DNA from: Undaria pinnatifida
Taxonomy: Eukaryota; Sar; Phaeophyceae; Laminariales; Alariaceae
DNA length: 64,000 nucleotides
NCBI GenBank assembly: GCA_012845835.1
Contig: JABAKD010000016.1
Span: 18,198,125 to 18,262,124, forward strand
Reading direction: 5' to 3'
The notes under the pieces were generated by a model. It ran no database searches and was not told where the DNA came from. It was given only the letters and a program-made list of their open reading frames with translations. This document shows, piece after piece, positions 3,801 to 63,821 of this stretch. The stretch's first letter is position 1. The number at the start of each line of letters is the position of its first letter. The translations under genes and the position numbers were made by a program.

Positions 3801-5485
3801 CGTCATCTTTGTGCTCTCGACCGCCCGCAGGTAAGAGGGGACACACAACCTACGACCTGGTATCTGACAGCACATGTCAGATGCCGTGTACGCATGCCTG
3901 CGGGGATATTTATACGTACCCCCGGGGTAAGAAGCCATCGACAATGCCTTCCTGCTCATTATGTAGAATATCAAAACGTAGACGACAGACGACCTCATAA
4001 CTTCGCACAACGGGAGCCAGAGCTACAAGGGGGTCGGTCATGGACAGGGCACATAGTTCAGATGACGATCGACCGAAATGCCGATCTAGCTTACCACATG
4101 CACGTGGCGCGTGCGGGTAGGTATCCACAGAAAAGTTGTGCCCAATCGTTGGAAGGCATACGAACGGCGCCTTCTTCCAACCAAGCCTTCTGCATGTCTG
4201 CGCATCATGGACGGTCTGAAGAGCATGGATAGGCAGCGACCAGTTAGTTCCTCTCTCGCTTCTGGGTTCAGTTCGCTGTTCGCGCCGTGAGGGAGCGGCG
4301 GCAGCAGAATACTGACCGGTGGTATGATCATAAGAAAGCTGTTGTGGGGACCTGTCCAGCCCATCAGTTTTCGTTTTCGCTTGCTGTTCGCAGTTTGCAA
4401 TAATGCGCGATGATGATGAGGAGCATGTGGAATCCACTGCGTGTACGATATATAAGGGTCTCGAGATTCCAGGTGGCGAACTGCGTAGAGACTTAGATTC
4501 CTTCCGATGATGGCGGACTCGGCGCTCCGGCTTCTCGGCTGTTCTTTCCTCATCTTGCTATTCTCCTTTCTACTTCTTGGTCTTCTTGCTTCTTTGGTTC
4601 CGATTAGGAATTGATTCCAAAACGGACAGCTCAAAGGCCACATCATGGATGTGAATCAGATCAGAGCCCAAAGCAGGTCCGTATAATATCACAGGATCAC
4701 ATGGTGCTCTAATGATTTATCACGTGTGGTAGTCGGGATGATTTCGAAAGAAAAAGTAACAAGCTCACCACACTTACTTCCGCATATTTCATACATTTCG
4801 TGCGTTAATCTATCTGCATTGATTGTATTATAGTAACAAAATTAGGTATGTCACGCAGCTATCGACGCTAAATTTCAATTTGCTAAATTTTACGAGAACG
4901 AGCTCACATCTGACGTGTTTAGACATTTTGTTTCAAAATATCACAGGCCACCGCCACCACTACTTACTGCTGCATGCAGCAGCGAACAGTGAGTGGTGAC
5001 GCTGCACAATCATCACACCTGGTCCATCATCCCGGCAAAGAAAAACGCCAAGATCACCACCAACCACCGAAAGAACACCAGCGCAGCAATAATAGCACAA
5101 GGCCACAACAACGACAACAACAGCCGTATCCAGCAGAACAAAACAACATGCTTTTCTCACGAGATAAGCCCAACCAAGGTGAGCACCGCCACGTGGGTGT
5201 GGGGAGGTGGGTGTTCTATTAATACCAGCCTGTGACCTGTTGTATACATGGTTGATATTTATAGTAAGCTGGAAGCCTATAAGCTTCGTAGAACGCACTC
5301 ACTCACGCAATGCAAGCAAGAAGAAGATATGAGCTTGGTTTGGTTCTGGTCTCTGCTCTACGTAGGAGAGGCTACGAATGGGTGGTCGGTGTGGTGTTGG
5401 GCTATCTATCATATGCGGGCTCATGCATGCTCATGCATGCATAATATGCATACCAGGTACATTTTTCAAGGTTATGTTCTGTAGG
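3801..5485. other. Gene-free stretch
   Basis: I find no gene. Open frames on both strands near 3,760-4,650 overlap each other and show no codon bias. A short piece at about 4,765 (GCTCACCACACTTACTTCC) resembles text at about 39,425 and 55,180, so a worn dispersed repeat probably lies here. Confidence 0.4.
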
Positions 5486-5880
5486 GTTTGTGGATTCCGG
5501 GTAAGGGTATGGGAGTCTTACAGAACTTACAGAAGTTTCAGGTACGGGTATGAAAGTGTTACAGAACTCCCAGAAGTTCCGGGTATTGTGGCATGGGCGT
5601 ACAGCACTCACAGAAGTTCCGGGCGGGTACAAAAGGTGCTGTACCCGTACCCCGGGTATTGTGGCACGGGGTGTACAGAACTCACTGAGGTTCCGGGTAC
5701 GGGTACGAATGTCCTACATAACTAACAGAAGTTCCGGGTACGGGTATGAAAGTCTTACATAACTTCCAGAAGTTCCGGGTATTGTGGCACGGGCGTACAG
5801 AACTTACAGAAATTCCGGGTATGGGTATGAATGTCCTACAGAACTGACAAAAGTTCCGGGTACGGGTAATACCCGGGTAT
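5486..5880 (+). repeat. Minisatellite block 1, units about 55-60 bp
   Basis: About seven units share the pattern GAAGTTCCGGGTACGGGTATG, then TTACAGAACT or CTACAGAACT, alternating with GGGTATTGTGGCACGGGCGTACAGAACTC. The units are diverged but in one orientation. The palindromic words CCCGGGTA and TACCCGGGTA are common in them. Confidence 0.8.
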
Positions 5881-6667
5881 ATGCACACCCCCTCGGGGGG
5901 AAAGTTCGATTTGAAGTGGAGGATTTAATCCAACTTGCATGGCATGTTCTCACTTTCTGGGCCAATGTCCCCGAGGCAATCTGTCGTAGCTTTAGGGAAT
6001 TATGAATTATCGACAAAACCATCACCGAGAGATGCGATAAATCGTAAACCTCAATGAGTGGTGACCGGGGCAACAGCCGTGCTCACGGCTATTCTGCGCT
6101 GTAACAGATCATACCATAGCGTACCCCGGCTGTGGCGCTTCAAATACAATAATGGCGGTCGCAATCCCAAATTTTTTCCGCGACAAAGAATTCTGAAGCG
6201 AAACTACCGAAAACACAGAGGATAATTCAAGACGTCGACGGTAGCTGCATCGCCGTCACGGCAGATCTATCTATGTATTATTTATTCCGATCGGAAAAAA
6301 CGTTGACAATACGCAATGCGTGGTTTCCCGATAGGAGCCAAATTCGTATGTTTCCACCAAATCGAATCGCATTCAATTCCATTCGTAAAAAATGAATAGT
6401 TTCGATCCAAAAGTGTCCTTCGTCAATATTATACGTGTCCACGGGTTAGAAACGGAAGAAACATAAACAGGACCTACAGCAGTAGTAGTAGTAGGTGCCA
6501 CTATTAATATCATCACTATCATAGTATACGACAGGTGACTGCTACATACAGCCGTACAGCAGTACTTTCGGTGTTCGATTGGTGTCACTGACACAATATG
6601 ACATCATAATAATGTGCATAACACGAAGTACACTTTTTGGGTTATTAAACCTGAACTAATGCATGTG
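5881..6667. other. Gene-free spacer between minisatellite blocks
   Basis: No coding exon or known repeat was recognised here. Confidence 0.4.
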
Positions 6668-7045
6668 GGCTTCCCGGGTATTGTAACAAAGGTATACCCG
6701 TACCCCGGGTATTGTGCCACAGTCTTACAGAAGTCACAGAAGTTCTGGGTTAGGGTATGGAGCTCTTACAGAACTTACAGAAGTTCCGGGTACGGCACGG
6801 AATTGTTACAGAACTCACAGAATTTCCGGGTATTGTGGCACGGGCGTACAGAACTCAGAAGTTATAAAAGTGATACACCCGTACCCCGGGTATTTGTGGC
6901 ACTGGCGTACGAACTTCCAGAAGTTCCGGGTACGAGTATGACTGTCGTACAGAACTTCCAGAAGTTCCTGGTACGGGTATGAATGTCCTACAAAACTTAC
7001 AGAAGTTCTTTGTAGGGTAATACCTGGGGTAAATACCCCGGGTAT
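6668..7045 (+). repeat. Minisatellite block 2, same family as 5486-5880
   Basis: The same GAAGTTCCGGGTACGGGTATG and TTACAGAACTCACA units return in the same orientation after a spacer of about 790 bp. CCCCGGGTATTG junctions sit at the start and near the end. Confidence 0.8.
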
Positions 7046-7149
7046 GGTTTGTGCGTACCGTACAGAACACGACCTTGCATTTTTTCTTTTCTCTTATTTT
7101 TTCCTTCTTGTCTCTTTTTTTCACGGTTTGGCTTGTTTTGTTGTGTATT

Positions 7150-7342: not shown

Positions 7343-7375
7343 AACAACGTACTACGTAGTACCTGGTAGATAGTA

Positions 7376-7485
7376 AGAAAAAATTGGTAGGTGGTAAAGT
7401 TCCCTCTTCTTACCGTCATAGAAAAAAGTGGTACCTGGTAGGTGGTGAGAAAAAAGTTCCCTTTTCTTACCGTCATAGCCCGCCG
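7376..7485 (+). repeat. Tandem duplication of about 55 bp
   Basis: GGTAGGTGGTAAAGTTCCCTC..TTCTTACCGTCATAG is followed directly by a second copy that reads GTACCTGGTAGGTGGTGAG..TTCCC..TTCTTACCGTCATAG. A TACCTGGTA word sits in the second copy. Confidence 0.6.
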
Positions 7486-7925: not shown

Positions 7926-7994
7926 CCAATAATAACACCAGTAGTGGTCAGTACAAACACTCTTCTAACTCTTATGACTCTTCCCCTCGTGTCT

Positions 7995-8262
7995 TATTTT
8001 GTTTTTTGTTTTTTGTTTTTGTTTTTGTTTTTGTTTTTGTTTATTTCGTATTTCTCTCTTCCAATGTATTTCTGTTGCTGACGTATGTATGTTGTGCCTG
8101 TCGTACCCAGTACTAGGGCATGACATTGCGTTGTCGAATCCATTACGATGCATTATCTCTGTGTCGTGGCTTGTGACCACAGAGCTGATCTTTCTAGGGT
8201 GAAGAATCAGTACGGACACTGGGTGTGCTGGATGTCGACGAGTAGAAGAACGGTTTAATGTG
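7995..8262 (+). repeat. Dispersed repeat B, copy 1
   Basis: This stretch is the near-identical reverse complement of 12,655-12,925. It begins with (GTTTTT)n and ends with GTCGACGAGTAGAAGAACGG, close to a (CA)n run at about 8,268-8,281. The few differences suggest a recent duplication or transposition. No coding frame is evident. Confidence 0.75.
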
Positions 8263-9242
8263 AAGAACACACACACACACACCAGGGGTATGCCCATACA
8301 GATGTGTCTGGATGTTGCTTGTTACCTGTGTCAAGAGAGCTTGTGCGACGCGTATTATGCGTGGCTTGTGGGACGAAACAAACAGACAGCAAGCAACCAA
8401 TCGTTCGCAAAATGGTAGGAGGGCTGTGAGTTGGCAGAAGTGATACACATGATTACAGTATTTTACATTTCTAACCATTTTATTACCCCTATGATGTCAT
8501 TAGGGTCACTTCGACCGTAGTTCGTACCTGGTACGAACGTTGTATGGGTTAGGGTTCGGGTGGGGGTTCGGGTTAGTTGCATGGTTGAACAAACGCAATA
8601 ACGATGTAAGACACCCTGACTGAGTTGGTTGTAACTGTAAGCTGCCGACTACGAAGTACCAGGTATTATCGTGGTTATTGTTTGGCTTTCCAGCAAGTTT
8701 TTTTTTGTTTCTTTAATCCTCCGGCGGATGGGGAAAACTATTTTTTCCATCTCATACACACCTCGTGTATCAATTTAACTCAGCTGTATTCGCAATCCAG
8801 CGCTGCCAGCTGGCGTGTCTTTCAGTTCCCGTGGTATCGACAGCGCGAGCTGTCCCTGTACCGGCGGTCCCCGTGACTACTCCTGCAGCGCACGCTGCCG
8901 TTGTATACGGATGCGTGAGTGTGTCGACCCGACCTGGATCAGGTGCGCAGTAAGTAGTACCTGTCCGACGTGGTTACGGTTACTAATGATGGTTCCCGCA
9001 GTTTGCTAACTATCCGAATATTTTGGGGCTCTTCGTTTGTTTGTAGGAAGGCTTGTTTGGTTCATCATACTTGTACGTGTAAAATTAAACCGAATGCCGT
9101 AATTTTTTCCCCCGGCGGCATCTTCAATGGGGTCCTCCGGAGGCCCCTCCGGCGGGCTTTCCGCCCCCCCCCCTCGGCCGGGGGGGACTATTTGGGCTCG
9201 CGGCGCTCGCCTGTTAATTAGTCGGCCAATTAGTTGAAGTCA
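8263..9242. other. Gene-free stretch with telomere-like and dispersed pieces
   Basis: At 8,520-8,538 lies a 19 bp palindrome centred on TACCTGGTA. At about 8,545-8,578 are GGGTTAGGGTTCGGG-type telomere-like units. At about 8,715-8,800 is a piece sharing TCCTCCGGCGGATGGGGAAA and GATTTAACTCAG-like text with 55,145-55,225. I find no gene. Confidence 0.5.
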
Positions 9243-9835
9243 ATTAGCTGGCTATCTTCTGTTATTAGGCTTAGTTTGGGTAAGCTATCGGTTCACCTTT
9301 TGCAAGTGGTCAAACGGATTAATACCCCACTAATACCTCAACAAATGGCGTCGTTGACAGACCATCGGTTTATGGGTCGTGGGTTCGAGTCGCACATCTA
9401 CCTGTAAGCTTTTTCAGACTTTCCCCATGTCGAACTTGAAAAATACTCTCCCCGCTATCCCCAGGAAATGAAACCGGTTGGATATTGACAGGTCCACCCG
9501 TATATCCGGCCAACCTGCTATCCCGCCGTTTCAGGGGGGGGGAGTGTTATTTTGGCTTAGTTTGGGTAGCATGCTACCTGGTATAGGTTAACCTTTTGCA
9601 AGTGGTCAAACGGACTAACACCCCCACTAATTCCTTAACAAATGGCGTCGTCGACAGCAATGGGTTTTTTGGCTCGTGGGTTCGATTCCCACCATCCGCC
9701 CGTACATCCGGCCGACCTGCTATCCCGCCGTTTCAGGGGGGGGGTGTTATAAGGCTTAGTTTGGGTAAGCTATCGGTTAACCTTTTGCAAGTGGTCAACA
9801 AACGGACTAATACCCCACTAATACCTTGACACTTC
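9243..9835 (+). repeat. Cluster of the tRNA-like SINE/TRIM-like element
   Basis: A block of about 75 bp (GCTTAGTTTGGGTAAGCTAT, then TTTTGCAAGTGGTCAAACGG and CCCCACTAAT) occurs three times, near 9,265, 9,554 and 9,755. Between copies lies an internal part with a perfect tRNA-like T arm (GGGTTCGAGTC or GGGTTCGATTC), TTTCAGACTTTCCCCATGTC and CCCAGGAAATGAAACCGG. The middle unit is shorter. The same architecture is at 15,357-15,734 and 18,640-19,016. It could be a SINE joined head to tail, or a small element with terminal direct repeats. There is no coding part. Confidence 0.65.
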
Positions 9836-10159: not shown

Positions 10160-10194
<35 letters not shown>

Positions 10195-12370
10195 GCTACT
10201 ACTACTACTACTACTCCTACTCCTCCTAGTCCTACTCCTGCTCCTACCACCACGTCTACTACTACTACTACTACTACCACAACAGCCATCACTCACTGCT
10301 GTTTGTTTGGCTTATTTTATGGTGTTTTGCCACCACCCCCCTTTGGTCCGCAATCCGTTTATACTTTTACATAACAATATGTACCTGGTACCTTTTACGA
10401 GACCTCCGACCTACGAAGTACTACGAAGTAGCATTTTTGCGTGGTAATTGTATATCTGACCCGAACCGCCATGTGAGTGTGAACTGTCACATTTCGATCA
10501 GATTTTAAGCTCCCCCCCTCTTTTACCCCTTCGTTGGCTCGTATCTGTGTATTGTAGCTGCGATCTCGTCTGAAGGCGGATGTTGAGGTTTATCGGTCCC
10601 GTTTGATGCATTCCTACGTAATTACACTATTAATAGCATGCCACGTAGCGCGTTCTTGGTGCATGGGTCCTTTTCCCTCTGCTAGCAGCTGTCTCTGAGT
10701 GTGCTCTCCTTCCCCCCCACACTCACTGTGTGTAATGATTGGCTCGTCACAATCCGCCCGTTGCTGACCTCTCCCCCCTCCTCCTCCTTTCGAAAGGGCG
10801 CTCTGCGACCGAGGGTGGGGGCGGCATATCATTGCTGTGGCTCAAACAAAATGGTCCGGCAGCCTGCCCCCGACGCTCTCCCTGTTGTCCTCTATCTAGT
10901 CCCTCGCTTCGTTCCGTCGTGTGTCCTTGCAATCTTTCCCGAAAATATATACATCCTCTGCCCCGTAAGTCTACTTGATTATTGGCGTTTGATTGTTTGG
11001 GTATGACGCGGTTGATGATCCAATAGTTGGGTTCGTTAAAAAAATGAAGTGCAGATGAAGTTCAGTCTAGGGAGATGAAGAAAAAACGAAAGAAGTTTCA
11101 ATTCTAAAATCATGTCAAAATATACCCCATTTTTTTTGGCACTTCTTCAGTTTTTTTTTAGAATTTTTATGAGAATTTTTATGAGAATTCGTGGGTACCG
11201 CCCCAAACCTAGCCCACAGAACCACATTAGAATGGACTTGTCCCCAAATACCCCCCCAACTCGCGGAGGGGCGACGGACTACCGTTGTGTCGCCGTTACG
11301 GAATTGCTGCGCAGTGACAGGACATATACCGCTTACCACATATACCGCTTACCACCCAAGAAAGACTACCATCACGTATATATTACACGAATAGTCGGTT
11401 TTTCCAGGCGCGAGTAGTGAGACGTGTGCACCAGTATGGTCCTGGCACATCGTAGGCTGACTCCCGATTTCACTGTTTATACGTTTCTGGCGGAGGCATG
11501 AATTGCGTCAGCTGTGATATATGCGTGTACCACCTTCGGTTTGGTTGTGTTTTTCTCCGTGGGGTATTCCTCAGCTCCAGAGTGACTGGAGCCTGTCCTG
11601 TGACCACGGATTTGATTATGCGAGTTAATAATATACAACAACAACAATTGCGGTGGAGGACGGTTATTATTTTATTCTTATGTTCCTACACTTTGGTTTT
11701 GACTGATTCTTTTTCGGCCGTTCGGCCGCATGGTTCAATCGAGCTGGAAAATATATATATATTAAAAAAATACTAAAGAACGCATAAAAATATCGAAAAT
11801 CAAATCGGACACGGTTAAGGGCTCGTACAAACATCACCACGCAGACTTATAGGACAGAGGAAGTAGGAAGATAAAAGTTTCCATGCTTGACGATATTATT
11901 AGCGAAACAGTACAGACCTCACCCACCCATGATTACGTCCGCCCGTGCTTTGCGTGAGTGTGGTACGCCATGCCATCATCGTCAGAGACAAACCTGCAAA
12001 CAAGTCGCAGTCGGTTCCCATCTAAATAATAGTATTCGGTGTTATAAGGCTTACCCTGAGTTGGTCATCTTATCTATCCTACAATAGTGGTATTGAGGTT
12101 TTAGAAAGCGTCCCCTCTGTATGCCTCGCAGGCGTTACTGGCTGCCGGAGTGAGGATCTACTCACCCCTTTCTGTCAGATAACATAAGTGCGAGACAAGC
12201 GACTAACCGAGACTAAAAATGATGAGTTCAAGCCACAAGCCAAGCACCATGCAGCTATTTTTCTCGGTCGCCGCCAAATCCGACGACCCGTTTCAATAAT
12301 ATTGGTTTTGTCATCCGACAATCAGTAGCAGATACATGGGAACCGCATATGAAATGACCCTGGCTTTAGC
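9836..12370. other. Gene-free stretch with a (CTA)n array
   Basis: A (CTA)n microsatellite lies at about 10,160-10,280 and a TACCTGGTA word at 10,382. A T-rich run with duplicated GAATTTTTATGA is near 11,160. Open frames at about 10,700-11,000 and 11,100-11,420 have no codon bias or splice context, so I do not call genes. Confidence 0.45.
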
Positions 12371-12660
12371 AGGGGAGTCGCTGACCTGTATCCTTGACGA
12401 GGGTGCACACCCCGTAACACGCGCGATCGAAGTATCACGCAGCGTGCAAACAAAGCTGAGTTTTGATAAATAAATCATTTTTGGCCGATCTCACAGCTGA
12501 AGACGTGTATTTTTCATTTTTTCAAAATATTTCAATCTAATCAATGTTACCAGGTATATCATAAAAATAAAAATACACTCCAGCTGTGAGATCGAACATT
12601 TTGTCGAAACTCATCTTCTTTGCAAGCTGTGTGTGAATTATGATACAGCAGTATCATGTG
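12371..12660. repeat. Dispersed repeat C, two halves in inverted orientation
   Basis: The right half (AAAAATACACTCCAGCTGTG, then GAGATCGAACATTTTGTCG and AAGCTGTGTGTG) runs on +. The left half is the reverse complement of the same unit, with GCGCGATCGAAGTATCACGC and GGTCAGCGACTCC-type text at its outer end. Single plus-strand copies are at about 38,728-38,835 and 56,268-56,405. A TACCAGGTA word sits at the joint (12,548). No coding frame is present. Confidence 0.65.
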
Positions 12661-12925
12661 TGTGTGTTCTTCTTCTACTCGTCGACATCCAGCACACCCA
12701 GTGTCCGTACTGATTCTTCACCCTAGAAAGATCAGCTCTGTGGTCACAAGCTACGACACAGAGATAATGCATCGTAATGCATTCGACAACGCAATGTCAT
12801 GCCCTAGTACTGGGTACGACAGGCACAACATACATACGTCAGCAACAGAAATACATTGGAAGAGAGAAATACGAAATAAACAAAAACAAAAACAAAAACA
12901 AAAACAAAAACAAAATAAGAAAACA
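12655..12925 (-). repeat. Dispersed repeat B, copy 2 (inverted)
   Basis: Near-identical reverse complement of 7,995-8,262. It ends in (CAAAAA)n on + and abuts a TG run at 12,656-12,665. The two copies form a 4.4 kb spaced inverted pair. Confidence 0.75.
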
Positions 12926-14880: not shown

Positions 14881-14954
14881 TAGTACGTGACAGCTTCGGA
14901 GCTACTTGGTAAGAAATTTGTCGTGCCGTTTGCACGGATTATTGTACAACCATT

Positions 14955-19617: not shown

Positions 19618-21662
19618 AGTTTGTTTAGTAGAATACTCGAACTACTGCAATTACTGTTGATTCGCGCGTCGACACAAAGAAGCGGCCCATAAAGAGGAAG
19701 AGGGAGGTCCTGGGAGGTACAAAGTAGTAGGAGTTGGTGTTTCCGCTTGGCGCCACCCGAAGGAAAAGGAGACCAAAATAGTCGACGTGGATAGCGATGT
19801 TCCGACCTGGTTGGCAGAACGGGCGGGGGGGGGAGGGGGGGGTTGTGGGCAACACGGAGCCCGCCGGGACGACTTGCACTCCTACCCCCAGAAGGGGAAA
19901 ACGAAATAACAGGAGCGCATACTACCCCTGTGAGGGGCTCGAAACACGTTGAATACCAAAGTCACCGCCACATCGACCAGATACCCATGCAACGGGAGGA
20001 GAGGGGGGCATTGACAAGGTGTCTTTCGTGGAAAAGAGCCGCCGGCGGGGGGGGGGGGAGTCGAACAAACATGTATATCTTCGGTTTGAAGACTGGTGGA
20101 GAACACCAAATAAAGAGAGCTATGATACCGCCGCCACATCCCCGGCCAAGGGGGGTCGGCGGGGCGCCCGAAAATGTATAACGCCGAAAAAGGCGGAACA
20201 CGAAAGCTGCATATATATTCTACTCGTCGTATGCCTCAATATGCCCTTTTTGCTACCACTTTACTTAGTACCGTTATAATTAGCTGCCGCGCAGAGGAAG
20301 GTCGCGGCATCGAAAAACAATGGACAAAGACGCGACGCGCGTGTGGCCAAACGGTAAATAAATAATGGCGAAAAGAGTGAGGGGCGGAACACGAGGCAGG
20401 CAATATACTCTACTGGACGCAAAACTATTGGGGGGGGCAGCAATACGAAGAGCACTGCTACCACTTTACTACCTGTATACTCGTAGTACTACATTCTACA
20501 ATAACAACTACAACAACAGCAGTACAGAAATCGGCACGCCAGACGCGATATGCATCAGCCCCTCCTCCTGCAGAAACGTTGTTGATGAAGACACCGATTC
20601 GGGTTCAGAGAAAAAATATCCAAACCCCAGAAAAACGGGAATAAAATAATTTGAACATTTTTTTTCGTTCCGAATAATCAGGAAATTGGAAATTTCGCAA
20701 AAGGTAATGAACTCCCATACCTGTGGTAACTCAGAATTGGCACGGCGTGCAGCAGTAGTATGATCTGTTATACCTGGTAGCTACTACTACTACTACTACT
20801 ACTACTGCTGCTATAATAGTATCATGGTGCCAGGTAGCAACGTAGCAACGGCAGCCACGTCCACAAATAAAACCTTGCGGACAAACGGTAGTATTTTATA
20901 AAAATTATCACCTTTTACTGTACAGCAGCAGTACTAAGCACGAAGAACTGAAAACTATGGGTCAAACTATCATTGTTTTGAACAAGATAAGTACCAGGTA
21001 CAAGTGTATCTTTATCTTCCCTTCCTTGTAATACTTGCTTGTAACAAGGTACGAGTAGACTTACGTAAAACGCCTGACGCTGCACTTGCACCCACGAAAT
21101 TGTCCGAAACTTTAATGACCGTTTATATTTATATTTAAAACGAAAGCGGTCCTAAATTTGCGGACGAAAAGAAAAAGTTACAGGTTGCAGCAGCTTTCAG
21201 GATTTTATGTTGTTTCGCCGGTGTGGTGTCGCTCCTATGATACTATCGCGGGTCTGACTCGACGACTCAACCCTGCTCCACCCCCCACCGCAACCGGGTG
21301 GTTCTATCACTGCACTGTTGCATGACTGTGGTCAGTGCACAACACGATCGCCGACGAGACACTGATCACGGATACCAGGTATCATTTATTATTTCCAGAA
21401 ACTACTTGTACAAGTACGAGAAACAAAGAGCCAGCAACATCATGTCATACCCTTCTCTCCAAGACACATGAACAACTGGCCGCAGTGCTGAACAGCAGTG
21501 AAATAGAATCTCCGAAATCCTGTTTCTACAATCTACCAGGTAGAAGCGCAACAACAACCAACACATCAAGCAGAAGGAGCAGCAAACCCAATTGAGAACA
21601 GAGCCCCCCCGCCTCGTGTTTCGAGAGCGAGGTAAAGCCGAGCAACGTAGAGGGGAACCCCA
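19618..21662. other. Gene-free stretch with a partial internal duplication and (CTA)n
   Basis: Text near 20,190-20,270 (GGCGGAACACGA, ATATTCTACT, GCTACCACTTTACT) recurs near 20,385-20,470, so an old duplication is likely. A (CTA)n run is at about 20,785-20,815. TACCWGGTA words lie at 20,771, 20,992, 21,373 and 21,534. Open frames here lack codon bias. Confidence 0.45.
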
Positions 21663-22526: not shown

Positions 22527-23255
22527 CCGTACGAGTTGAACCCAATTTTCATCGTTTTTTAGTGGTGTTATGCAAATCACCGCCCGTCGTGACCTGCGTG
22601 TGCCCTTGGCACCATGTGAGATGTGACCTTTTGCGATGTTTCAGATGAGTGATGAGTGCGAGCAGCAGTACCAGTTGGTAAAGTAGCCGTGACCGCGTGG
22701 TAAATCTCTTGGAGTGCCCCAATCTCTTGACGTGAAAATAGACCAATTGAAACTGCAGCGCGTTTTAGGTACCTGTTTTTGATACCGTGCCTCCGGACGA
22801 TTCTCGTCCCATTCTGTGAGGAGTGTATGAGTCAGTGACTCGTAGCAGTTACCGGCCCGTGGGAATGCTTGTTTTTTGGGAGGGAGGGGAGAAAAAAAGA
22901 GGAAAAGCAGGGAAATCAGTTCGAGAGGTGGCTTTTCGTGGTGCTGCTGGTGGCTATCAGATGCGTATCATATGATGCCCGTCAAGCTTTCTCGCCCATC
23001 GTGCTGTTGCTATGCTTGCTGCACACAGCAAAGCCAAAGCTTGCGTGTGCTTTCCGCTCATGACACACGACGTTTGTACGCACCGGTGCCTATGCGACGC
23101 ACCTCCTGCTACTGTACGTTGTACCCTGTTCGATATGCAAGGTTTGTTGTCTATTATACGACCTTGTATTTGCATCTGCCATGCAGGACGTGGAATACAC
23201 GCGGCGAGCTTTTTGCGGCAACAACCGTATACGTGGTACCTGGTACGTATGACGC
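22527..23255. other. Gene-free stretch
   Basis: This is the 3' flank of the gene ending at 22,526. I found no supported exon or repeat. A TACCTGGTA word is at 23,237. Confidence 0.4.
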
Positions 23256-23685: not shown

Positions 23686-24699
23686 TTTGAACCAAACAAA
23701 GCTTGAACGATCTGCGATCGGGGGGAAATCGTTTTTTTTTTTTCTCAGGTTCCATCCCATCCTCAAAGCGTGTGGTGTGGCACGTGACATCATTTTCGTG
23801 TTGAGGGGTTTGGGTTTGACGTTTTGATTGCTTCAGGGAAGGAATTATGCAGTTCCTGGTATGACATACTGCACTGGTAGCAATAACATTGTGCTTTCTC
23901 ATCACAGAACGCCTCGATCATGGGCGGTTGCGACAAACGAGCGGTTGCTGTTGTTGTCCCGCAAGCGCTTGGATACAGCGAACGATAGAAAATAGGCCCC
24001 GGCGTCACAGGGTGTTGTTTTCTGTTTGATTAAGTTGAAGAAGAGACATGCGATCATGCAAATGTTATGCAACGCAATGCAATGCTACGCAGATGCAGTG
24101 GTTAACTGATTCGAGTGCTCGTTTGTACAGTATACGTGCCGCAAACAGTTACCATGGTCTGCATCAGGTATGCGTTGTGTACAGCACTTCGTATATACCG
24201 CTCTGGAAAGAAGTGTAAGGACCGTTTTGTTTTTACATTAATATCAAAACCGCTCCTATATTCACGTCCATCGTGGTATCATATTACAAGAGGTCCTGGC
24301 CTCGTCTCTTTCTCCTGGTGAAAAGCAGGGGGGGGCGGAGGTTTGATTGTGAGTTAGTACCAGGAATGATTGTATGATGCAGCATGTGGAGCACAATTGA
24401 TTGCGACACGCGTATTCTTTTGTACCAGGTATCTGCCAATGGATATCTTCGTTCATAGAACGCGGCGGTGTGGGAGGGTTGTCATTGTGTCTGGCTTGGC
24501 GCTGCAATTTCTCGGTTATTGATTTGTTAGTCCACTTTTTGTTTTTTCTTTTTTGTACCGCGACCCGGACCTGACGTCTCTGTCTGTTTTATATGTTTTT
24601 CATGCTGTTTTTTTTTGCTGTTTTTTTATGTTTTTTTTTTGCTGTTTTTCATGATGTTTCGTTTTGTCTGACGTCGTCTTTACCCTGTAAACTAACACG
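23686..24699. other. Gene-free stretch
   Basis: T-rich runs occur near 23,740 and 24,600-24,650, and a TACCAGGTA word at 24,423. No exon is supported. Confidence 0.4.
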
Positions 24700-29374: not shown

Positions 29375-30861
29375 CTTGTTCCTTCCTTTGCAGCCTTAAG
29401 ACTCATCCCACGGTAGGGGGTGCAGTTTTTGCGCTAAAACGTCCCCGGCTGGCCCCCAATCGAGCTCCTCATGCGAGGAACTACCGGTTGGTCATTGATC
29501 AAGTAATTTCACGAGTAAATACCTGGTACGTTGTTTTAGGACTACTAAGGCATAGAAGCTTGGCCGGGTTTGTGCGAACGAAGAATGCCTTCGAAGTCGT
29601 TTTTCGGGTGAGATATTGAGTTCCTCACGTGAGGAACTCAGGGAACTTTCTGCTGCAACCTTAACGCAGGATGACTCTTTTGAGCTTTCTTGAAAAAGTG
29701 TTTCGTGTTTTTAAATTCGCCAAGCGAATCCGCAACGGGAAGGTAAGTTCATATGCGTCCCCAAAATATGACCTCTGGAGTTAATTTTCGGAACAAAGTG
29801 CCTAAACAGGTGCCGTCAGCTGTGAGTTCGATAAATTTAGGGTCGATACGCATGCAAGCTTGCGTAATATACCTAATTTTGTGACTGCAATTAATGGGGC
29901 AGTTGAATTGACACACGAAATGTATGAAAACATGCGGAGGTAAGTGTGATGAGCTTAAGCTTTACTTTTTCCTTCGACATCATCCCGACCACCACTCACT
30001 ACTGTTGTGAGCAGCACATTTTGTCCGTGAGGTACAGTCACTCGTGCGAGTGGACTGATTCTACGATAGCCCACCCAAAAATCGGCGATCTTCTTTAACG
30101 GACGTTTCAGTTTCATGGCTGCTTGACACGAGGACGGATGCCATGAAAACAGCACCCTCAAACATTTTCATGTTTGTAAAGGTCTACTACATTATCGAAA
30201 CGATGACGCCAGGGCGGTAAGAGGCACCGTATTTTTTGGATACACAGCCGGGAGCTAGTTTCAAAACCAGCGATTTCGATATATAATATTAATAGGTGGG
30301 GGGGCTACCGTAGAACGACTCAGTGGTGGCATTGAAAATGGAGGTATCCTCCCTACCGTAGCTTGGGTCCTTTCATTTTACGACTTTCGTGGCTCACCAA
30401 CTGAGCACATGGGATACTATATCTGCCGCTAGGACTCCCGCAGCAGGAGTATGTTTGCACGAGTCGTCAACGTGTGTGCGTTGGTGTGTGTCGTGTACTT
30501 CCTGTTTTCTATACCCATCGGCTTCCAGCTTCCAGCTCACCGCCCCCAACCGGTATCCGTACTGATTCTCCATTTTCGTTTTTTTTTTTTTTTCTGTATA
30601 CGGCCCAAAGTCGACGGGACCTCGTAAGGGACCCCTTTCTTTTGGCGCCGTGTAACCTAGAAATTCGCGTCCGCTCGTAACCACAGCATGCGCCCTGTAC
30701 CTCTTACGCTTTTTGTTGATGCTGTGCAGATGCGCACGGCTCATGGGATTAAACGTCGATGGGGATGTACGGGAGATGCACATAGCCCATGGGCTTGAGC
30801 AACTATAGAAACTATAAGCGTTTTAACATCTCCATGCAAAGAGAACCCGAGAAAGAGTCTC
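29375..30861. other. Gene-free stretch with a small dispersed repeat
   Basis: Bases about 29,570-29,660 (GAACGAAGAATGCCTTCGAAG, GTGAGATATTGAGTTCCTC, GAACTCAGGGAACTTTCTGC) match 55,388-55,475. A reverse-strand frame at 30,394-30,783 has no codon bias. I find no gene. Confidence 0.4.
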
Positions 30862-40600: not shown

Positions 40601-43600
40601 GTGGGATTATGGAACTCCTTATGTGCGAATCCTGAGAAACATTTGGTACCAGGCACTTGGTACTCCCGTGCCAATAAGATGGTCAAAAATCAATACACCG
40701 AAACCCGTTACACCAACTAGTGTACCAGTGAAACAGAACTCCTTGCGAAGGACGGCAGGGGAAGGGTCTCGCTCTTCTTGCTGTACCTTTCGCTTGGTTG
40801 TTTCGAGACGCTCTTGCGTGGACACCAGCTGGTCTTGCATCGCTTCGTTCCTGGTGGGTCAGCGGTGGGGCGGCGGTGGGTACGTTTTGGGCCCAAGGCA
40901 TGGACGTTCAGTGAATACGGCCTAACAAACCGACCGATGGACGCTCTCGCGACTACCAACGGCATACGTGGGTGTCATGGCTGCTGCTGCAGAAATGTGT
41001 TGTTTCACTTGAATACCGCTCGCCTCTCTCGCTTGGCCTTTGAATCACCGCCCTTGACGTTCAGTCGCTCCGCGAGCGTTCTCACTTCGGTGTCGTGTTT
41101 ACTACTTTGTAGGTACATATGCCTACCCGTTGCAACTACAACAAGTTTTACGCTTTCCGTCCGACAATGTGCGGAATAACGCTTCTCATTGCACTTGCCT
41201 CTCTCGTTCGGCTTTCAAATCGCCGCCCGTATCATCCAGCTGCTCCGCAAACACTCTTAGTTCAGCGTCGCGTTTGCGCAGCTCCTCTCCGAGCAAGTGG
41301 AGTTCCCTCACTAAAACCTCTTTTTTTATAGCGGGTGTCGGGGGTGTGTGGGGGGTGCAGTATAAGTTGGTGTTACTTAAATCGTATTGTTTCAGTGTTT
41401 TCACCTACGTAATGTAGCATGTTTTTATGTTGTGTGCGAGACGAGAGTACAAGTGTCAGACATAGAAGAGGGGGCAGTGACATCGTTACTGTCGCCATCA
41501 TCAGGAGAGGAGGGGAGAAATATAAATATGAGGAGCCAGTAAGAGAACAGGAGAGGAGACGCGTGGTCCAGGTACTTGGTCGGTGAAAACCCAAGCAAGA
41601 GGAGAGGCAGAGAGGTGGGGCTTAGTAAGTACTCGATCGGATAAATTACATCATGTGGGGAAAATATTTGAGAACCAGAGGTTCTTGGGCAGACAAATGG
41701 CTCACCCGCAGTTGGGCTTTCGTCTTCTCCGAGGCTTGGTCCATCCCCTTCGCGATAAATTCCCTTGAGGTACTCCACCACCACGGCATGCTCCTGGCAC
41801 GATGTCGACAGGGAAAGTCATGACAAGCATGGACGGTGAAATCACTTTATCCTTGTGAGCGTCATCACGTTTCCATCCGACTACCCAATGGCCAGGTCGA
41901 ACTACGATAACTATTACTGTTAGTCGGTATGAAGCAGAAAACTGAGGTATTCTTCGACTTCAGAGTTAATTAGACCCTGTCTTGTGCGCACAGGCTCTAG
42001 CATGGTTGTCGTAGTTTTACGCGCAGTTGTAGTTGTATTCAATTTCTGTTTGTTTTGTAAGACTTTGAGATTGATGCTCACGCTGCACATGTTCAGATGG
42101 CAAGAACAATAACAACAGTAATGGCGATGGGTTACTGTGAGAACAATGACCATATCGATGTCTCTCGCTCCACTCACTTACCCGGCTCAAAGCTTCTTCG
42201 GCAGACCTTCGCCGGTTAGACTCCTCCTGACAGTTCAACGACGATCATACACCGTTGAGCGACGCATTTTAATTGTGTGACGCGTGTGGTAGTGTTTTTT
42301 TTTCTGCTTTCGAACGGCGTTGCTTATGGGTATCTTGATGACCTGTTATTGACAAATTCATCTTGATCAGCGCTGTTGCCACCCCACACGTGAACCGCCA
42401 ATTGCAAGGACTGTGAGTTGGTTGACTACAAGCCGCTGACAAACTAATGGTTGGCTATTTGTTATAGGTATTACAGTTCTTTGCGTGCCGTAAATTATTG
42501 AGTTTGTCCCTGAAAAACTGACCGGCGCGTTCGTGGTCGACGCGTGGGTTTCATTAGCATCTAGCCATCAAGTCCAGCCAACTCACAGGCCTACCAATTG
42601 CAAGTCTGCGTGCGTGACGTCGAGGACTATCGTTTTGCTGCGGTACATAGTCTGACGAGACGTAGCGTCTTGGTGCCCTCCTCTCTCGATGACAATGTCC
42701 ATGAGGATATTTCCGTCGGATGAATATTGAAGGCATCGCCACCGGGCACGATTTAATATCACATGTACATGGTGTCCCCCAAAAAATGAGCCCATCATTC
42801 TCAACAGTATTGGGTTGTTGTTTATGGGTTGCATATAACGGTGGGTTACATATAACGGTACGTACCTGGATCCACCCCTTCGAACGTTCTTCTGAGTCTC
42901 TCAGGCTCCTTTGCAGGGCATCCACCTCGTACTCCAAGTGCTCCTTATCCTTCGACGATGACTGTCAACCGCAATGTTGCACATGCAGGGATACTACAAC
43001 AAGGTTTGATTTCCTTTTTTTCGACGATAACTGCGAACCGCATTGTTGGACATGCAGGGATACAACAAGGTTTGATTTCCTCTTTTAAACGACAGCACTA
43101 TCCGTACAAGCGGGCGACTAAGCATAATCAGAGGAGTCCTGCACAACCTTTGTTAGGGCCGTTTCATGCCCCTTATTGTACATAATATTATATAACCACT
43201 CACCGCAACGTGTTCTTCCCGCTGCAACAGTCGTTGCTCCAGGTCCTTCCGCTTAGCGGTTTCTTCTTCGAACGCTCTCTGAATAATTATTGTTCAAAAA
43301 GCATCGACTTAAGCATCAGCCACCGACGACGTTGTAAATAAGACGAACGGAAGCCTATATGCTGTGCGCTAACGTCCCACGGGACTAAGGAACCAAGCAA
43401 CAATCGTGAGGTGGCGAGAATTGTCAACCCGTACTGGTACCTATAACGTACATCATTGTCAAGCAATGCATGCCATCCTTATGGAGCCAAACAAAATTGC
43501 ATTCAATGATCAACCCCATCTATGCAACACCACGTTGTCGGCTCTACGACAAGTTTTCAGGCGGCGACCACTTAGCATTCACACTTGTTACTGAATGTCA

Positions 43601-44109: not shown

Positions 44110-44263
44110 CTGAGGTAACGGTAGCAGCGTGTACGGCGCCAGGTCGGGTTGGTACGGGTTGCGAAAAACACAGAAACAACACTTCGTACCAGTATGCCAG
44201 GTACGAAACAATATGTCATTCGTATAGCACACAGGGGAATCAGATCGCTGTTCATCTCGTACA

Positions 44264-44512
44264 CCGGATGCATATACTATGATGAAACAGTAAACGACAG
44301 CTGCCGACGTGTAGTCAACAATCTGAAGGTCGTACCATACCACCGACCGGATGCATATACTATGATGAAACAGTAAACGACAGCTGCCGACGTGTAGTCA
44401 ACAATCTGAAGGTCGTACCATACCACCGACCGGATGCATATACTATGATGAAACAGTAAACGACAGCTGCCGACGTGTAGTCAACAATCTGAAGGTCGTA
44501 CCATACCATCGA
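44264..44512. repeat. Three nearly identical 83 bp tandem units
   Basis: Units begin CCGGATGCATATACTATGAT at about 44,264, 44,347 and 44,430, and are almost the same, so the array is young. It lies upstream of the first clear exon of the coiled-coil gene, probably in an intron. Confidence 0.85.
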
Positions 44513-53400: not shown

Positions 53401-55140
53401 GCCCCCCCCCCCCCCCCCTTTCCCAACCCCCCCCCCCTTCTCACCCCTTCCCCCTTCCCTTCTACCCCCTCCCCCCCCCACTTTCGTCATCACGGGAAAC
53501 GGGCCCGTTTCCTTTGAGTGTAACTCTAGAAGACGTTTAGAGGATTCCTAACTGTTGTTATATTCGTGGCGACTGTTTGTAGAGAGCCGTGAGGATGCCA
53601 CAGTCACTGTCTACCTGTACACTGCACACTTTTGAATGAAGTATATAAATATATGTACCTGGCACCAGGTACGATTCTTGTCATGAATGCAGTGTTGTTT
53701 GTTTTCACAAGCTCGTCAACAAGCAAAAGGAATGCTCATTGAGCGTGTGAAACAGCACTCTATTCACGATCCAACTGACGCCAGAATGTTTTTATGCCTC
53801 GCACAGCAGTGCTTGCAGGTGCTACAATGGATGGTATATGGACGGTACCATGGTTGGTATGTTGAGGGTACAAAGGTTGATATATATAGATGATATATAG
53901 TACAAAGGTTTAGGGTGGGGTGCGCGCACGCGCTACGGCTGTTCATGTTGCATTTGGAACGTTGCATGGTTTGACCTATTGCCCGGTATCGACAACACTT
54001 GTATTTGCCGGTGGTTGGGTTGGTTGCCGTTCGTGGTCTTTAGGCTTTTGTTTAGCGCAAGCGTAACAGGAAGCGTAAATTCCGGTGGTTGGATAGTTCG
54101 CCCCCTTTGGAGACACGAATCCACCTATGTGCTGTTGTACCTGTATAATTACTTCCAGATGTACCACAGTTATTTTTGGAGGGTGTCCCAGGCAGAGTGT
54201 TACCTCGGACTACGTGGGTCGCAAGCACACGGCTTTCGTCTCGTCTTGTCTTATGTCTTCCGTTTTCTGTTTTTTGTGGCGGTCGGTTGCGGAATAGGGT
54301 GTGCCTCTGGGTCATTCGTTGTCGGTGTTGACACTAGTGAGTGTCATCCATCAAACGTGGCTATTACATTGTACACAACGCTTGTTCGAAGCGCTCAAGA
54401 GGCTGCGGTCACGTTTTTGATTATTTCCAACGTGCTGACCTCTCTTTGCTCTTTACCATCAATGACAACATTGCGTCTTACGTGATCTCCCTTACAGTTA
54501 TCTGTTTGTTCAGCTTTACCGATGTGTTTGGAGACGAACCGCTCTCGGAAGATACCTTTGGGCTTCTTTCTGCGACGACGCGCTTCGCTGCGTCGTTTGT
54601 CTTGTTCTCGCCGTAGCCATGTAGAGGAAAAACTGCATGCGCATACTGTTCACGTTTGCGTATATTGTTGTCGATCTGCAGACCTGTCCGGGTGATTTTA
54701 CATGGAAGCGAAACAAGTGACAAATTCAGTGCGGTCGGTATGAAATAGGCCTCCATATCGGATTCAGTAGGGAATGAAGAACAAGGGCGTCCAGGAAAGT
54801 CCCCCTTGAGGAAAACGCCCCTTTTTAGTATCAACAACTATTGTGCGGCGTACCTGGTACGTGCGTGCGGGGGATTTTTCCTGGGCGGGTAGGAAGGGCG
54901 GGTTTTCCTCCCTCGGTTTTGGTTGGTGTATAACTATTAATGTCTTGGGATCCAACGTCTGACGCGAGATACGATAATAGGGATGAGCGCTTTTTTCCTC
55001 CCCTGTTGAACTTTTCTCACTCACGCGGCGCGGCTCCTCAGCTGAGCGACTACCCCCTGTCGTTGGGACGCCTTTTGTGGCTCAAAGTGCTGTTTGTTTT
55101 GCACCCGGGCCGTGACGTTGTCCACCAGGCAGGCTGCACT
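53401..55140. other. Gene-free stretch
   Basis: C/T-rich runs lie at 53,401-53,480. At 53,656-53,671 is TACCTGGCACCAGGTA, two half-words of the common palindrome back to back. A 168-codon frame at 53,979-54,485 has no codon bias. I find no gene. Confidence 0.4.
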
Positions 55141-56088: not shown

Positions 56089-56267
56089 GGCTTAGGCGTA
56101 GTGGCATTGGAGGGGTGGCTTGCGTAGTATGCAGTTGGTTGCAGTGCTGCACGTGGGAAATTATAATGCATACCTGGTACCAGGTGCCACAGGTATCAGA
56201 TAAAGTGGGAGTACCAGTGTTTTACACAGTGTGGGGCGGGCCATGCTATGCCATGCCTAAACTATAT

Positions 56268-56405: not shown

Positions 56406-56456
56406 TGGGACTACGGTGTACCAGGTAGCTATCAGGGTCGACAGGGTGATGTTAGT

Positions 56457-58397: not shown

Positions 58398-59505
58398 CAA
58401 CCCAAGCCAGCGTCAGAATCCTCTCCCCTCCACTTTAACCCCTTCAGCAATGCACCCTCGTTGTGGGAGACAAAAAAAAAATACTTGGGAGTTTCTGTAG
58501 TTTGGGCGTATTTTCGCAGTGGTAATTAACTTCCACCACCGTCACCGTCACGGGTGTCACCCCCGAGGACGAGCGAAAATCACGGAGCGAGCGACTCAAC
58601 GCCACACCCACACGCCCGGCACGCAAGCCAACCCATGCAAACAAAACCGCGCACCAACAACCACACGCAAGATTTTCGTGGTGTACCACGTGTACCGGTA
58701 CTGATATACCAGGTAAACCATAATCACTGAGCTAACAGCGTGGTTATGGTGTCTGTATTTTAACAGGTGGTACTACTAACACATACCACAGTCGTTGCTA
58801 TGTCATAAACCGTGAAAACACAAAACACGCGTCCGCGTCAACAGTTCCGGCCGAGCCCGTCGCAGTCAAGAACAGAGGATGGAGACCAAAACACAACAAG
58901 ACGCGCACCCTCGCGCACCCCCCCCTGACCCCATCCCCTCCCTTGCTTTGCCCTCCCCCTCGTCGACCGCACTTCTACCTGAACCTCAACCTCCGGCTGC
59001 GCTAATTATCTCCACAACAGACGAAGAGGTAACAAAAACCAACGCGAATGTATTGCTCTTCCCTCCCTCACCCAAGACGCAGCATTTTCCTCTTCCCCCC
59101 GCCCCCCCTGGCCCCATCCCCTCATTTCCCCCTGCCCCTTCCACGGCAAGCCCTCCGTTTTTTACTCCCGTCACGATCACCGGCACCGTTACTGCAGTCG
59201 TCGTGATCGTGGTACATTTGTTGTCGAACCGGCGTTTCGATTTTCGTATCGCGGCAGAGGCGTTCGTCACAACCACTCTTACCGTTACATTGCAACTGCC
59301 AGTTATCGATTCGGTGTTCGCGTCATCTGTATCGTTGAAGCAGCTATTTATCGATTTGGCGTGTCGAATTTCGCACCGTCACCGTCACCGCCATCATCAC
59401 CACCACTGCCACCGTTTTGGTAATTTTGTAACTGTCATGTTTCGATCCGGCGTTTCCGATTTCCCACCCTGCCTCATCAGAGGTAACCAACCAATCAACA
59501 AAAAT
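58398..59505. other. Gene-free stretch, long pyrimidine-rich + frame
   Basis: A + frame at 58,879-59,763 is open for 294 codons, but its first third is C/T low complexity and its end lies antisense to a better exon (59,506-59,697). I leave it uncalled. Confidence 0.35.
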
Positions 59506-59697: not shown

Positions 59698-59699
59698 CT

Positions 59700-60429: not shown

Positions 60430-60731
60430 CCCTATTTGCAGGACGGGCCTGCAACGAATTCTTGCAGGACGTTTTGGCACACTTTTGTCCCAGGTACCTG
60501 CACAGACCCCACCCAACCCCAACCCTAACCCTAACCCTAACCCTAACCCCAACCCCAACCCGACCCCTGACCGTTTGACCGGTACGTGGGGCTAAAAGTG
60601 CCCTCGCGCGGCTTCGCCGCGCGTTCGGCAGGCGTTCGCCAAAAAAAAAACGCGGGCAATAAAAAGCGGCAGGTGGCCAATCAGAGGCACGTCCCGCAAG
60701 AATTCGTTGCAGGGCCGTCCTGCAAATAGGG
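60430..60731. mobile_element. Small inverted-repeat element enclosing telomere-like units
   Basis: The left arm 60,430-60,470 (CCCTATTTGCAGGACGGGCC ... TTGCAGGAC) and right arm 60,691-60,731 are inverted copies, 39 of 41 bases alike. Between them lie about four units of AACCCT at 60,521-60,556 with flanking AACCCC, then a hairpin-prone GCGCGGCTTCGCCGCGC. No coding frame. Confidence 0.7.
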
Positions 60732-61019
60732 TTTTTCCTCTCCCCCCCCCCCCAACTACGTACGGTCCAGTTATGATGCTTGCTTTCAAGGCATTACTAA
60801 TAACGTGCACACAGTAGTACGTTCATTGCAGTTCGAAACTTGTCTGCATAGTTACTCGTTTTTCACTTTCCATACGTTCGAAATCGCATTTTGCCTGTCT
60901 TCATTTTATTTGCCATGTACGTTTTCTGTCTGGTAGAGTGTGACCTCTGCTTGCACTTGTTCTCCGGTATCTCTCTCAATGGATAGCATGAGGCATCAGC
61001 ATCAGGCGTCTCCTGTGTC
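60732..61019. other. Gene-free stretch
   Basis: Nothing recognisable was found. Confidence 0.35.
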
Positions 61020-61300
61020 GAGGAATATTAATAGGTAAATCTCGTCCACAATACTATTAAATAATGAGTAAACGATGCGGGTTCGAATCCTCCCCGCTAA
61101 TAGTGGATACTCGTGCTCGTAGGGACTTTTTAGTGCGAAACTAATGACGAGCGGAAAGCGTGAGAGCGTGAGTCACCAAAACACGATGAAAATCGACGAG
61201 CGTAAAAAGCTGAGAAGTGGGAATGCTGGACCCTATGCGCAATAAAAATGAAGGCATGTACCGGGAGAGACCTATGACCACGGCTTGTCACGGAACGTCG
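61020..61300 (+). mobile_element. Second tRNA-related repeat, copy 1
   Basis: A T-arm-like GCGGGTTCGAATCCTCCCCGC is followed by GATACTCGTGCTCGTAGGGA, AAAATCGACGAGCG and ACCACGGCTTGTC. The order is repeated at 63,822-63,985. A full tRNA cannot be folded, so this is SINE-like. Confidence 0.5.
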
Positions 61301-62116
61301 TACATATCGTATTTCGATGATTCCTGTTCCATTTGCTGTGAGTGGATCGTTTTAGACAGAAGTAATCTTATTTCTAGACAAAATGACATGTATTTTGTAA
61401 CTTGTTAAAGAATAAATATAAACCAGATACTAAACTGTTTGGGGCTGAAAAATCTTCCACATGTTAAAATCCAAACGTTGAGATAAAAAAACTTGGAATT
61501 AGCATATTATATTTCTTGCAGGATGGAATATTAGTACTTGGGGGACTGTTCAACTGACCGACTGGTCCGAGGAACGCCGCTGAATCTGGGAATAATAATT
61601 ATAAATCTAAAAAAATCAACCTCCGAGTCCAAACTCGCTCGTGTTTTACCGATTGACAAAAAAAAAGGCCGTTAGCCTGGAGATAACACCACCATAACTA
61701 ATAGCTCGACCAAAATGACACCAAGAACGCGCTTCCCCGGCCCTAACGACAAAAAGTAAAGGAAAACACAGCACTATCACAGCCAGCAGCTAGCACAATT
61801 GCGCAGCATGCGCAACTATAATAGCGCAGAGTGGATGTATGCGGCAATATAACATTATTTTTGATATCGTCAGCACGTCTGCTTTCGATTTTGAATGTTT
61901 CAACCTTACACATTTGATGTTTGAGCCTCTGTGACGGTCTCACGTTACCTCACCAAAAAAATTATTGGCGCCTTGCTAACACCAGTTTACACTACAAGTT
62001 ACCAGAGGAGCCACCACCAGCCTCGATGTGCGGATTTTTTTTTTCTTCTTTCGTCGACGAGTTCACGCTTTAAATACTTATTCCGTTCACGCTAAACACG
62101 AGTGCGTGTACGTAGT
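61301..62116. other. Gene-free, A/T-rich stretch
   Basis: Nothing recognisable was found. Base composition is richer in A/T than most of the window. Confidence 0.35.
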
Positions 62117-62423
62117 TTTTTTTTTCGTTCACACATATCTACTTTCCAGTTTCTGGACAAGCCGTGGTCACAGATGTCGTCCCTTCTCCCCCCCGGTTCT
62201 TGGTTCAATTTATATCGCGCATAGGGTTCAGCAAACCCACTGCTCGCCGATTTTTCATCGAGTTTTGCTAACTCACGCTTTCGCGCTTTCCGCAAGTAAA
62301 TTGATGCACAAGAAAAAGTCCCCACGAATTTATACGAGTATACACTCGGGGGGATTCGAACCCACGAAACTGACCTATACCAGGCTCGAGGATAATCTGA
62401 TACGCCACCGGGGCGACCGTATA
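62117..62423 (-). mobile_element. tRNA-headed SINE, copy 2
   Basis: On - it begins CGCCCCGGTGGCGTATCAGA and has GTGGGTTCGAATCCCCCCG as box B. A body shared with 28,668-28,984 follows, and it ends in poly-A (T run at about 62,117-62,127 on +). Roughly nine bases in ten agree with copy 1 by eye. Confidence 0.7.
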
Positions 62424-63821
62424 TACTGGTTTTACACTTGCTTCGGCAGCGGACAGATATGTTGTGCTTGTGGCAGACGTATCCTATCTATAACGTATCC
62501 TATCGTCTTTCCTGCTTCTAGACTTGCCGAAATCACAGGTGCCGAGGAACAGCCATATAAGCGTGAAGATAACACACACTTTGTGGCAGCCGCGATTCAA
62601 CAGCAGCCGCACTCCAAGGGCTCCCCTTCGCGACAGCCACGAACGGTGCTTTGGCGTGTGTGCGTGTGCCATGCTGATAAAAAAAATCTGGACAATTTCT
62701 ACCCCCCCCCGACCCCCCGAATTTCAAAAGCACCCGCGCAGCCACAGCAGAAAACCGTCCAACAGCAGTGCTACAACAGCAGCCGGCGCCCAGTGACGGT
62801 AATCATAGTTCTCACTGCCTTAGTCCACAAGCCGGACAGCTTCAAGCTCTTGTCATTGTGAGAGCCACGGTGCATTTGTGTGTGCGGTGCTTAGCAGAAA
62901 GCTAATCACGACCACATTTTCTCGTCCAAGCCAAAAATCAAAGGCACGTCGTCAAACGTCAAATAGGCTCATAGCTCACAGGAGAGCCTGCGTTCCCCCT
63001 TTCAAACTTGCGAGACGCGCTAGACTCGAAATAAATCAAAAACGGAATTTGTAGCATACCTGTGTATGTGATAGCATACCTGTGTACCTGGTATGTGATA
63101 TACCTACAGCTGTACCGGGTATATATACTAAGGGAGTCTGTTTCGTGGCCACGCACTAGTATATACCAGGTATATATTATGGAGTTGAAGGAATGTGACA
63201 ATGTTCACCATACTGTCCACACGTATATTATTATGTAGCTGTCCATAGCTGCCGCGGGGAAATAACACTGTTATATCAGCTACGAATCCATGAGACGTCA
63301 CACCGTTGTGGCGGCACGTCCGCAGGACGTAATGCTCAGCGCAAAACGCCCGCTTTTTTCTAAAAGACAGAATCGCGATCTTCGATATTTCGATCTCGAT
63401 CTCGATTCAGAATGGAGAATCGGGGCGGGGAGGGGGGGCGGGACCCGATTGCCACCTCCAGAGGATCAGGAGAATCGCGATCCAGAATCGGCAACCCGAT
63501 CTGGATCTCCAACACTGATATGAAGGCGCTACTCTCGTACCACTGACACTGGTACAAGCAGCAGTATTGCTATCGGGGGCTGAGGGGTTTCCTTGTGTAA
63601 AGCACTATTCGAAGGTAAAAGCCCCCCCAAGGATTAGATGGAGAATCATAGGGTGGCCCGGTACAAATATCGTCTCAGATCTCAGACCTTACCATCATAC
63701 AACGTAGGCTCTTTTTCATACCGATCTCACTACACCAGTTGGTTTGTAAAGAAGGATTCAAGAAGACACCCCTCCCCAGTTTAGCTGGAGAATCACATAA
63801 TCAGCAGGCGTCGCCTATGGA
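62424..63821. other. Gene-free stretch
   Basis: TACCWGGTA words are at 63,085 and 63,164, the latter in a 17 bp palindrome. A GATCTCGATC-type run is at about 63,375-63,510. No exon is supported. Confidence 0.4.

Follow-up and report, generated by a model that had tools for sequence, protein, structure and literature searches.

The window analysed here, 64,000 bases of the brown alga Undaria pinnatifida (C22:18198125-18262124; contig JABAKD010000016.1 of assembly GCA_012845835.1), raises the question of why a single nine-base palindromic word, TACCWGGTA, should be so abundant in it, and of what process put the word there. Comparison of repeat copies with and without the word indicates that it is a TA turned into TA-CCWGG-TA, gained by insertion at TA. 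We consider it probable that TACCWGGTA is the excision footprint of a cut-and-paste DNA transposon inserting at TA, a putative donor that would resemble Tc1/mariner or pogo elements in its working.

Abundance of the word and its gain at TA

The window holds 21 exact copies of TACCWGGTA, compared with a mean of 0.34 in dinucleotide shuffles (n = 100; largest count 3) and with 0.48 expected under a second-order Markov background. A sequence-only reading of the window had described these 21 copies as a marked over-representation, which is borne out; all of the copies are present, one start being corrected from 8524 to 8525. The excess extends to the whole genome searched (511,146,479 bases in 68 contigs), where the word is found in 85,263 places, as against 3,475 for a control word with the letters reversed. 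With C or G at the centre (S in place of W), the genome-wide count is 9,212, as against 2,599 for the reversed control; the centre of the word is A:T, and part of the S-centred copies may be decayed words. When one mismatch was allowed, 49 sites were found in the window, 28 of them with one mismatch, as against 9.8 expected for exact and one-mismatch forms together. Decayed words are about as numerous as intact ones; as a very rough estimate, this suggests that the words are on average about 0.1 substitution per site old. Literature searches on the word, on excision footprints, on target sites and on brown-algal elements gave no description of the word that we recognised among the matches listed, and both “footprint” and “excision” are absent from the main text of a survey of Ectocarpus elements.

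The DNA compared locally, comprising the window and the fetched loci, amounts to 194,522 bases with 51 sites, of which three lie in repeats with alignable copies. Sister copies without the word are found in all three cases, and in two of them the copies differ cleanly by seven bases, CCWGGTA following TA. Locus L009 contains three much-alike tandem units; the first two read GTGCGTACGTTGG and the third, with CCTGGTA gained, reads GTGCGTACCTGGTACGTTGG. This comparison suggests that at least one insertion postdates the tandem duplication. The interspersed repeat at window position 56419 has copies in L011 and L019 from which the seven bases are missing, and two relatives that are more diverged, in L021 and L009, have other gaps. 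The case at window position 9575 is less clean, in that nearly all sister copies have a ten-base gap and the adjoining bases also differ. The flanks of 41 sites differ, with no flank common to the copies, in agreement with the earlier statement that the copies are not those of one longer repeat.

The repeat at 56419 also served for a genome-wide test, in which the pattern ACTACRGTGTA-KCTATCAGGG was searched either without an insert or with any seven bases after the TA. The empty TA is found in 4,424 + 4,456 = 8,880 exact genome copies, and a seven-base insert is found in 23. Twenty of the 23 inserts are CCWGGTA (14 CCTGGTA and 6 CCAGGTA, the window copy included), and the other three are CACAGCA, CTGTGTA and TACAGTA, one each. 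Because the flanks of this repeat fix the orientation, the A and T centres are distinct outcomes at one and the same target. The filled share of about 0.2% is similar to the share of TAs that bear the word genome-wide, which is about 0.3% (85,263 of about 27 million TAs, at the 0.0527 TA per base of the local DNA). One TA is present before the word arises, and two afterwards.

Symmetric targets and a putative excision footprint

When 43 sites were read from both sides (86 half-sites), A or G was found at position -1 in 69 of the 86, A or T at -3 in 60, A at -6 in 47, and T or A at -7 in 68; flank preferences in a set of 52 sites are alike. Both flanks were pooled in this reading, and the symmetry is that of the pooled preference. 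The target preference around TA is symmetric, and its two-fold symmetry appears to be of the kind found at transposase targets. According to an excerpt of one account (PMC5481204), the target consensus of DDE/D transposases is usually palindromic, and the part of another that deals with Sleeping Beauty gives a symmetric target logo from two million sites (PMC5801840). The four extended palindromes pointed out in the sequence-only reading do read as quoted there (Table 1). Its proposal of copying by symmetry is not supported, since palindromic extension in the 52 sites is about what single-base preferences predict: palindromic flank pairs at positions 1-10 are near the expectation from independent base preferences. 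The excess is largest at position 2, with 18 pairs where 14.5 are expected; positions 1 and 6 also have 18 pairs each, where 17.8 and 19.5 are expected.

An excision footprint could give rise to such a word in the following way. The element would insert at TA within a loosely palindromic target, the TA being duplicated, and staggered cuts at excision would leave a few terminal bases on either side. If its ends were CCAGG (or CCTGG), the two 3′ overhangs could pair via CC/GG around a central A:A or T:T mismatch, which repair would settle as A:T in either orientation, giving W. TA-CCWGG-TA would result from CCAGG-type ends if the cut lay five bases inside them, or from CCAG ends if joining involved a one-base fill-in, and with four G:C pairs the join would be uniform. 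It is the transposon, its end sequence and the overhang pairing that we infer in this scheme. Because each jump by cut-and-paste transposition with end joining would leave a scar while hardly raising the number of copies, if at all, a low-copy element could be accompanied by tens of thousands of scars. A precedent exists in Sleeping Beauty, for which an excerpted account describes staggered cuts with three-base 3′ overhangs that are kept as a footprint by end joining (PMC7827188).

Several points weigh against a footprint. The comparison with sister copies covers only 3 of the 51 sites, one of the three not being clean, and a general indel scan of aligned repeats in the window and fetched loci returned 66 varied indel positions, the L009 difference being the sole clean CCWGGTA case and the 56419 pair being absent. 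The L009 difference could also be a precise loss instead of a gain. Part of the 20 filled copies of the 56419 repeat may descend from a few filled ancestors, and the A/T difference among the filled copies shows only that the insertion arose at least twice or that the centre changed afterwards. At the TA of a second repeat, the genome-wide test for a seven-base insertion gave 0 matches, the empty copies there being uncounted. The remnant would be five bases long, compared with up to about four in published cases: the pogo-type transposon Passer leaves 0 to 4 bp in the part of its description concerned (PMC9976928), and rice excision scars are mostly irregular in an excerpt describing them (PMC4423477), whereas one five-base product dominates here. 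Membership in Tc1/mariner or pogo is not established and, because of the five-base remnant, the word is filed as working like a Tc1/mariner-type footprint and not as a member.

The search for a donor weighs on the same side. Neither the 194 to 212 kb examined nor the transposase loci read yielded an element with CCWGG ends, and the sequence following TACCWGG in local DNA, apart from local duplications and a few repeats, gave no common terminal repeat. The DDE_1 profile has 82 matches genome-wide, many with open frames, and in the five loci tried (L023-L027) no CCWGG end pair lies within 1.5 to 1.8 kb of the match. The DDE_3 profile has eight matches, of which the four that were fetched (L015-L018) represent a 1.75-kb element, about 99% alike, flanked by TA and bearing terminal repeats with the ends TGGTCCGTGCACAAC. 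This family of the genome has a Tc1/mariner-like domain and TA-flanked terminal repeats, but its ends differ, beginning TGGTCC, and it was rejected as the donor. The mariner-type profile Transposase_1 (PF01359) had no match in the genome, and the control genomes were likewise without a match. In local DNA, a scan for terminal repeats flanked by TA gave none with a CCWGG start among the matches listed, which are mostly simple repeats of L020. Many TACCWGG half-words continue with CA or TG, as expected of decayed words.

Two further structures were seen in the fetched loci. The segment L009 6632-6943, with ends CCAGTCTGRG, was considered as a candidate donor, which it may be by way of a four-base-overhang variant. 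The segment L021 826-3227 is a 2.4-kb element whose terminal repeats, 16 bases long and exact, follow TA (ACTCGCATAATCAAGT), and an end that seems similar to it by eye is found at window 11540-11650.

Doubled words, a second word and rival explanations

Every word makes a new TA, which is reusable as a target. Two CCWGG cores lie 1 to 30 bases apart in 9,704 places genome-wide, as against 145 for the control. Among the close-pair matches listed, 20 of 50, counted by eye, are TACCWGGTACCWGGTA, that is, two words with a common TA, and there are nested forms as well. The double TACCWGGCACCWGGTA, in which the shared TA reads as CA, is found in 472 genome copies, as against 0 for the control. Its centres, in the 100 copies among the matches listed, are TT in 32, AA in 27, AT in 25 and TA in 16; one centre thus seems almost independent of the other (chi-square P 0.15, Fisher P 0.07). 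By a rough estimate, doubles seem several times commoner than random use of TAs would make them; local duplication, good target context or both may contribute.

On first impression, the CA-centred double was taken for a terminal repeat, a candidate that was rejected because the form fits a double word in which TA has changed to CA or TG, or an insertion at CA. CA/TG is discussed among the non-TA sites of Sleeping Beauty in the relevant part of PMC5801840. Separately, heptamer arrays of the form (TACCNGG)n, with a changing centre, are found in some bacterial contigs (L065, L078 and L087 among them), a sample biased by the double-word query with which they were found.

A second TA-flanked word, TACAGCAGTA, is found in 15,444 + 15,259 = 30,703 genome places, as against 598 + 486 = 1,084 for the reversed control, and in the window at 2726, 6475, 6555, 12644 and 55464. 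It stacks on itself with a common TA (C1:415903 and C1:415911) and shares a TA with TACCWGGTA in the same manner (C1:550501 / C1:550509; L009:3874 / 3881). No empty site for TACAGCAGTA was found among the local sister copies, where the three alignments found have a one-base difference. This word could be a sister class of scar, left by a second element, or something else.

One rival explanation is that a seven-base unit, CCWGGTA, is put directly into TA by an enzyme or by templated repair, stacking on itself with no parent element. Direct insertion would account for a donor not being found despite 85,263 scars, for the dominance of one product, for the commonness of doubled and nested forms, and for the enrichment of the like-built TACAGCAGTA, which is able to share TA with TACCWGGTA. 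However, the symmetric flanks and the A/T centre are as expected from a transposase dimer and overhang pairing, we know of no mechanism for the direct insertion of seven bases at TA, and we regard this explanation as unlikely, if the most serious of the alternatives. It is quite doubtful that at least two seven-base-type units (CCWGGTA and CAGCAGTA) have spread by TA insertion without a parent transposon, each making a fresh TA; such units, if real, would be the smallest self-propagating insertions of which we are aware.

Three possibilities had been raised in the sequence-only reading: that the word binds a protein, that it is methylated, or that it is a very small mobile palindrome. The last comes nearest, in that a small insertion at TA is involved, although a footprint is likelier than a mobile unit itself. 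A binding site of an abundant DNA-binding protein, kept by selection, would be consistent with a palindrome of symmetric flank preference and with a 25-kb stretch of the window that has no exact copy. It is nevertheless improbable in view of the seven-base gain at TA relative to sister copies, seen in about 0.2% of the interspersed-repeat copies, the abundance of decayed forms (the 28 one-mismatch sites of the window), and a copy number that is very large for selection. A position inside longer repeats or a simple tandem repeat, whereby the count would be that of repeat copies, agrees with the 3 of 51 sites that align to other repeat copies and with some of the doubles, which may be local duplications; it is largely refuted, and most improbable, given that the word is absent from the sister copies wherever these could be aligned (three cases) and that the flanks of the 41 sites differ. 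CCWGG is a known bacterial methylation site, but a methylation or restriction site with this core is hardly credible, since bases are not inserted by methylation and a seven-base gain at TA is seen. The counts can be accounted for without invoking selection for binding or methylation.

Sites in the window and comparison with known systems

The sites of the window are collected in Table 1. Between 29.5 and 54.9 kb, a stretch of 25.3 kb is without an exact word (P about 0.0006 under uniform placement, calculated post hoc). The sequence-only reading had called 29.6-54.8 kb, in which it placed two large genes, free of exact copies, which is correct; one-mismatch forms are found there at 40647, 43670, 44195 and 53656-53671. 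A Pfam scan of ten window frames, including three at 31.4-33.6 kb and one at 51.0-53.0 kb, gave no match. Gaps of less than 500 bases between words number 7 in the window, as against 3.0 expected (P 0.014). In the first 100 genome places, short gaps number 16, as against 10.0 (P 0.034), with an overall spread that is non-significant (P 0.08). Clustering may result from the accessibility of targets, from hopping over short distances or from the loss of words in coding sequence. The window also contains an 83-base tandem repeat in three copies with 99% matches (44263-44512) and a near-perfect inverted repeat (8042-8227 / 12693-12878) with a span of about 4.8 kb.

Table 1. Intact and doubled TACCWGGTA words in the 64-kb window; no strand is assigned.
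Feature	Position	Basis
TACCAGGTA, intact word	5451..5459	exact match
TACCTGGTA, intact word	7360..7368	exact match
TACCTGGTA, intact word	7432..7440	exact match
TACCTGGTA, intact word, palindrome extending over 8520-8538	8525..8533	exact match and flank reading
TACCAGGTA, intact word	8657..8665	exact match
TACCTGGTA within repeat, aligned copies without word	9575..9583	exact match and repeat alignment
TACCTGGTA, intact word	10382..10390	exact match
TACCAGGTA, intact word	12548..12556	exact match
TACCTGGTA, intact word	20771..20779	exact match
TACCAGGTA, intact word	20992..21000	exact match
TACCAGGTA, intact word, palindrome 21371-21383	21373..21381	exact match and flank reading
TACCAGGTA, intact word, palindrome 21532-21544	21534..21542	exact match and flank reading
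TACCTGGTA, intact word, first TA common with one-mismatch word at 23230	23237..23245	exact and one-mismatch match
TACCAGGTA, intact word	24423..24431	exact match
TACCTGGTA, intact word	29520..29528	exact match
TACCTGGCACCAGGTA, double word, CA replacing shared TA	53656..53671	one-mismatch match
TACCTGGTA, intact word	54851..54859	exact match
TACCTGGTACCAGGTG, double word with common TA, TG replacing last TA	56171..56186	exact and one-mismatch match
TACCAGGTA within interspersed repeat	56419..56427	exact match and empty versus filled repeat copies
TACCAGGTA, intact word	58707..58715	exact match
TACCTGGTA, intact word	63085..63093	exact match
TACCAGGTA, intact word, palindrome 63160-63176	63164..63172	exact match and flank reading

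If the words are footprints, this genome keeps a record of past cut-and-paste transposition in the form of uniform scars that can be dated and that number in the tens of thousands; at nine bases each, they could easily escape repeat annotation. Counts of such scars would gauge how often DNA transposons leave rather than stay, which is otherwise hard to measure. Seven-base indels spread over the genome would, as such, matter for variant calling and for gene evolution in this lineage.

The footprint letters of Sleeping Beauty are TAC(A/T)GTA. With the footprints of Sleeping Beauty and other Tc1/mariner elements, the word has in common the insertion at TA, the TA duplication, a short remnant, an A/T centre and a symmetric target; unlike that of Sleeping Beauty, its remnant is of five bases rather than the three given for the overhang in an excerpted account (PMC7827188) and is nearly self-complementary, and about 85,000 copies of one form are found here. 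Passer-like pogo-type (DDE_1) transposons, in the portion of PMC9976928 that bears on them, share the TA target, and DDE_1 genes with open frames are found in this genome. Excision sites of rice mariner and other DNA transposons, TA elements among them, likewise consist of small scars in the excerpted report (PMC4423477), where most have deletions or filler, whereas the scars in Undaria are uniform.

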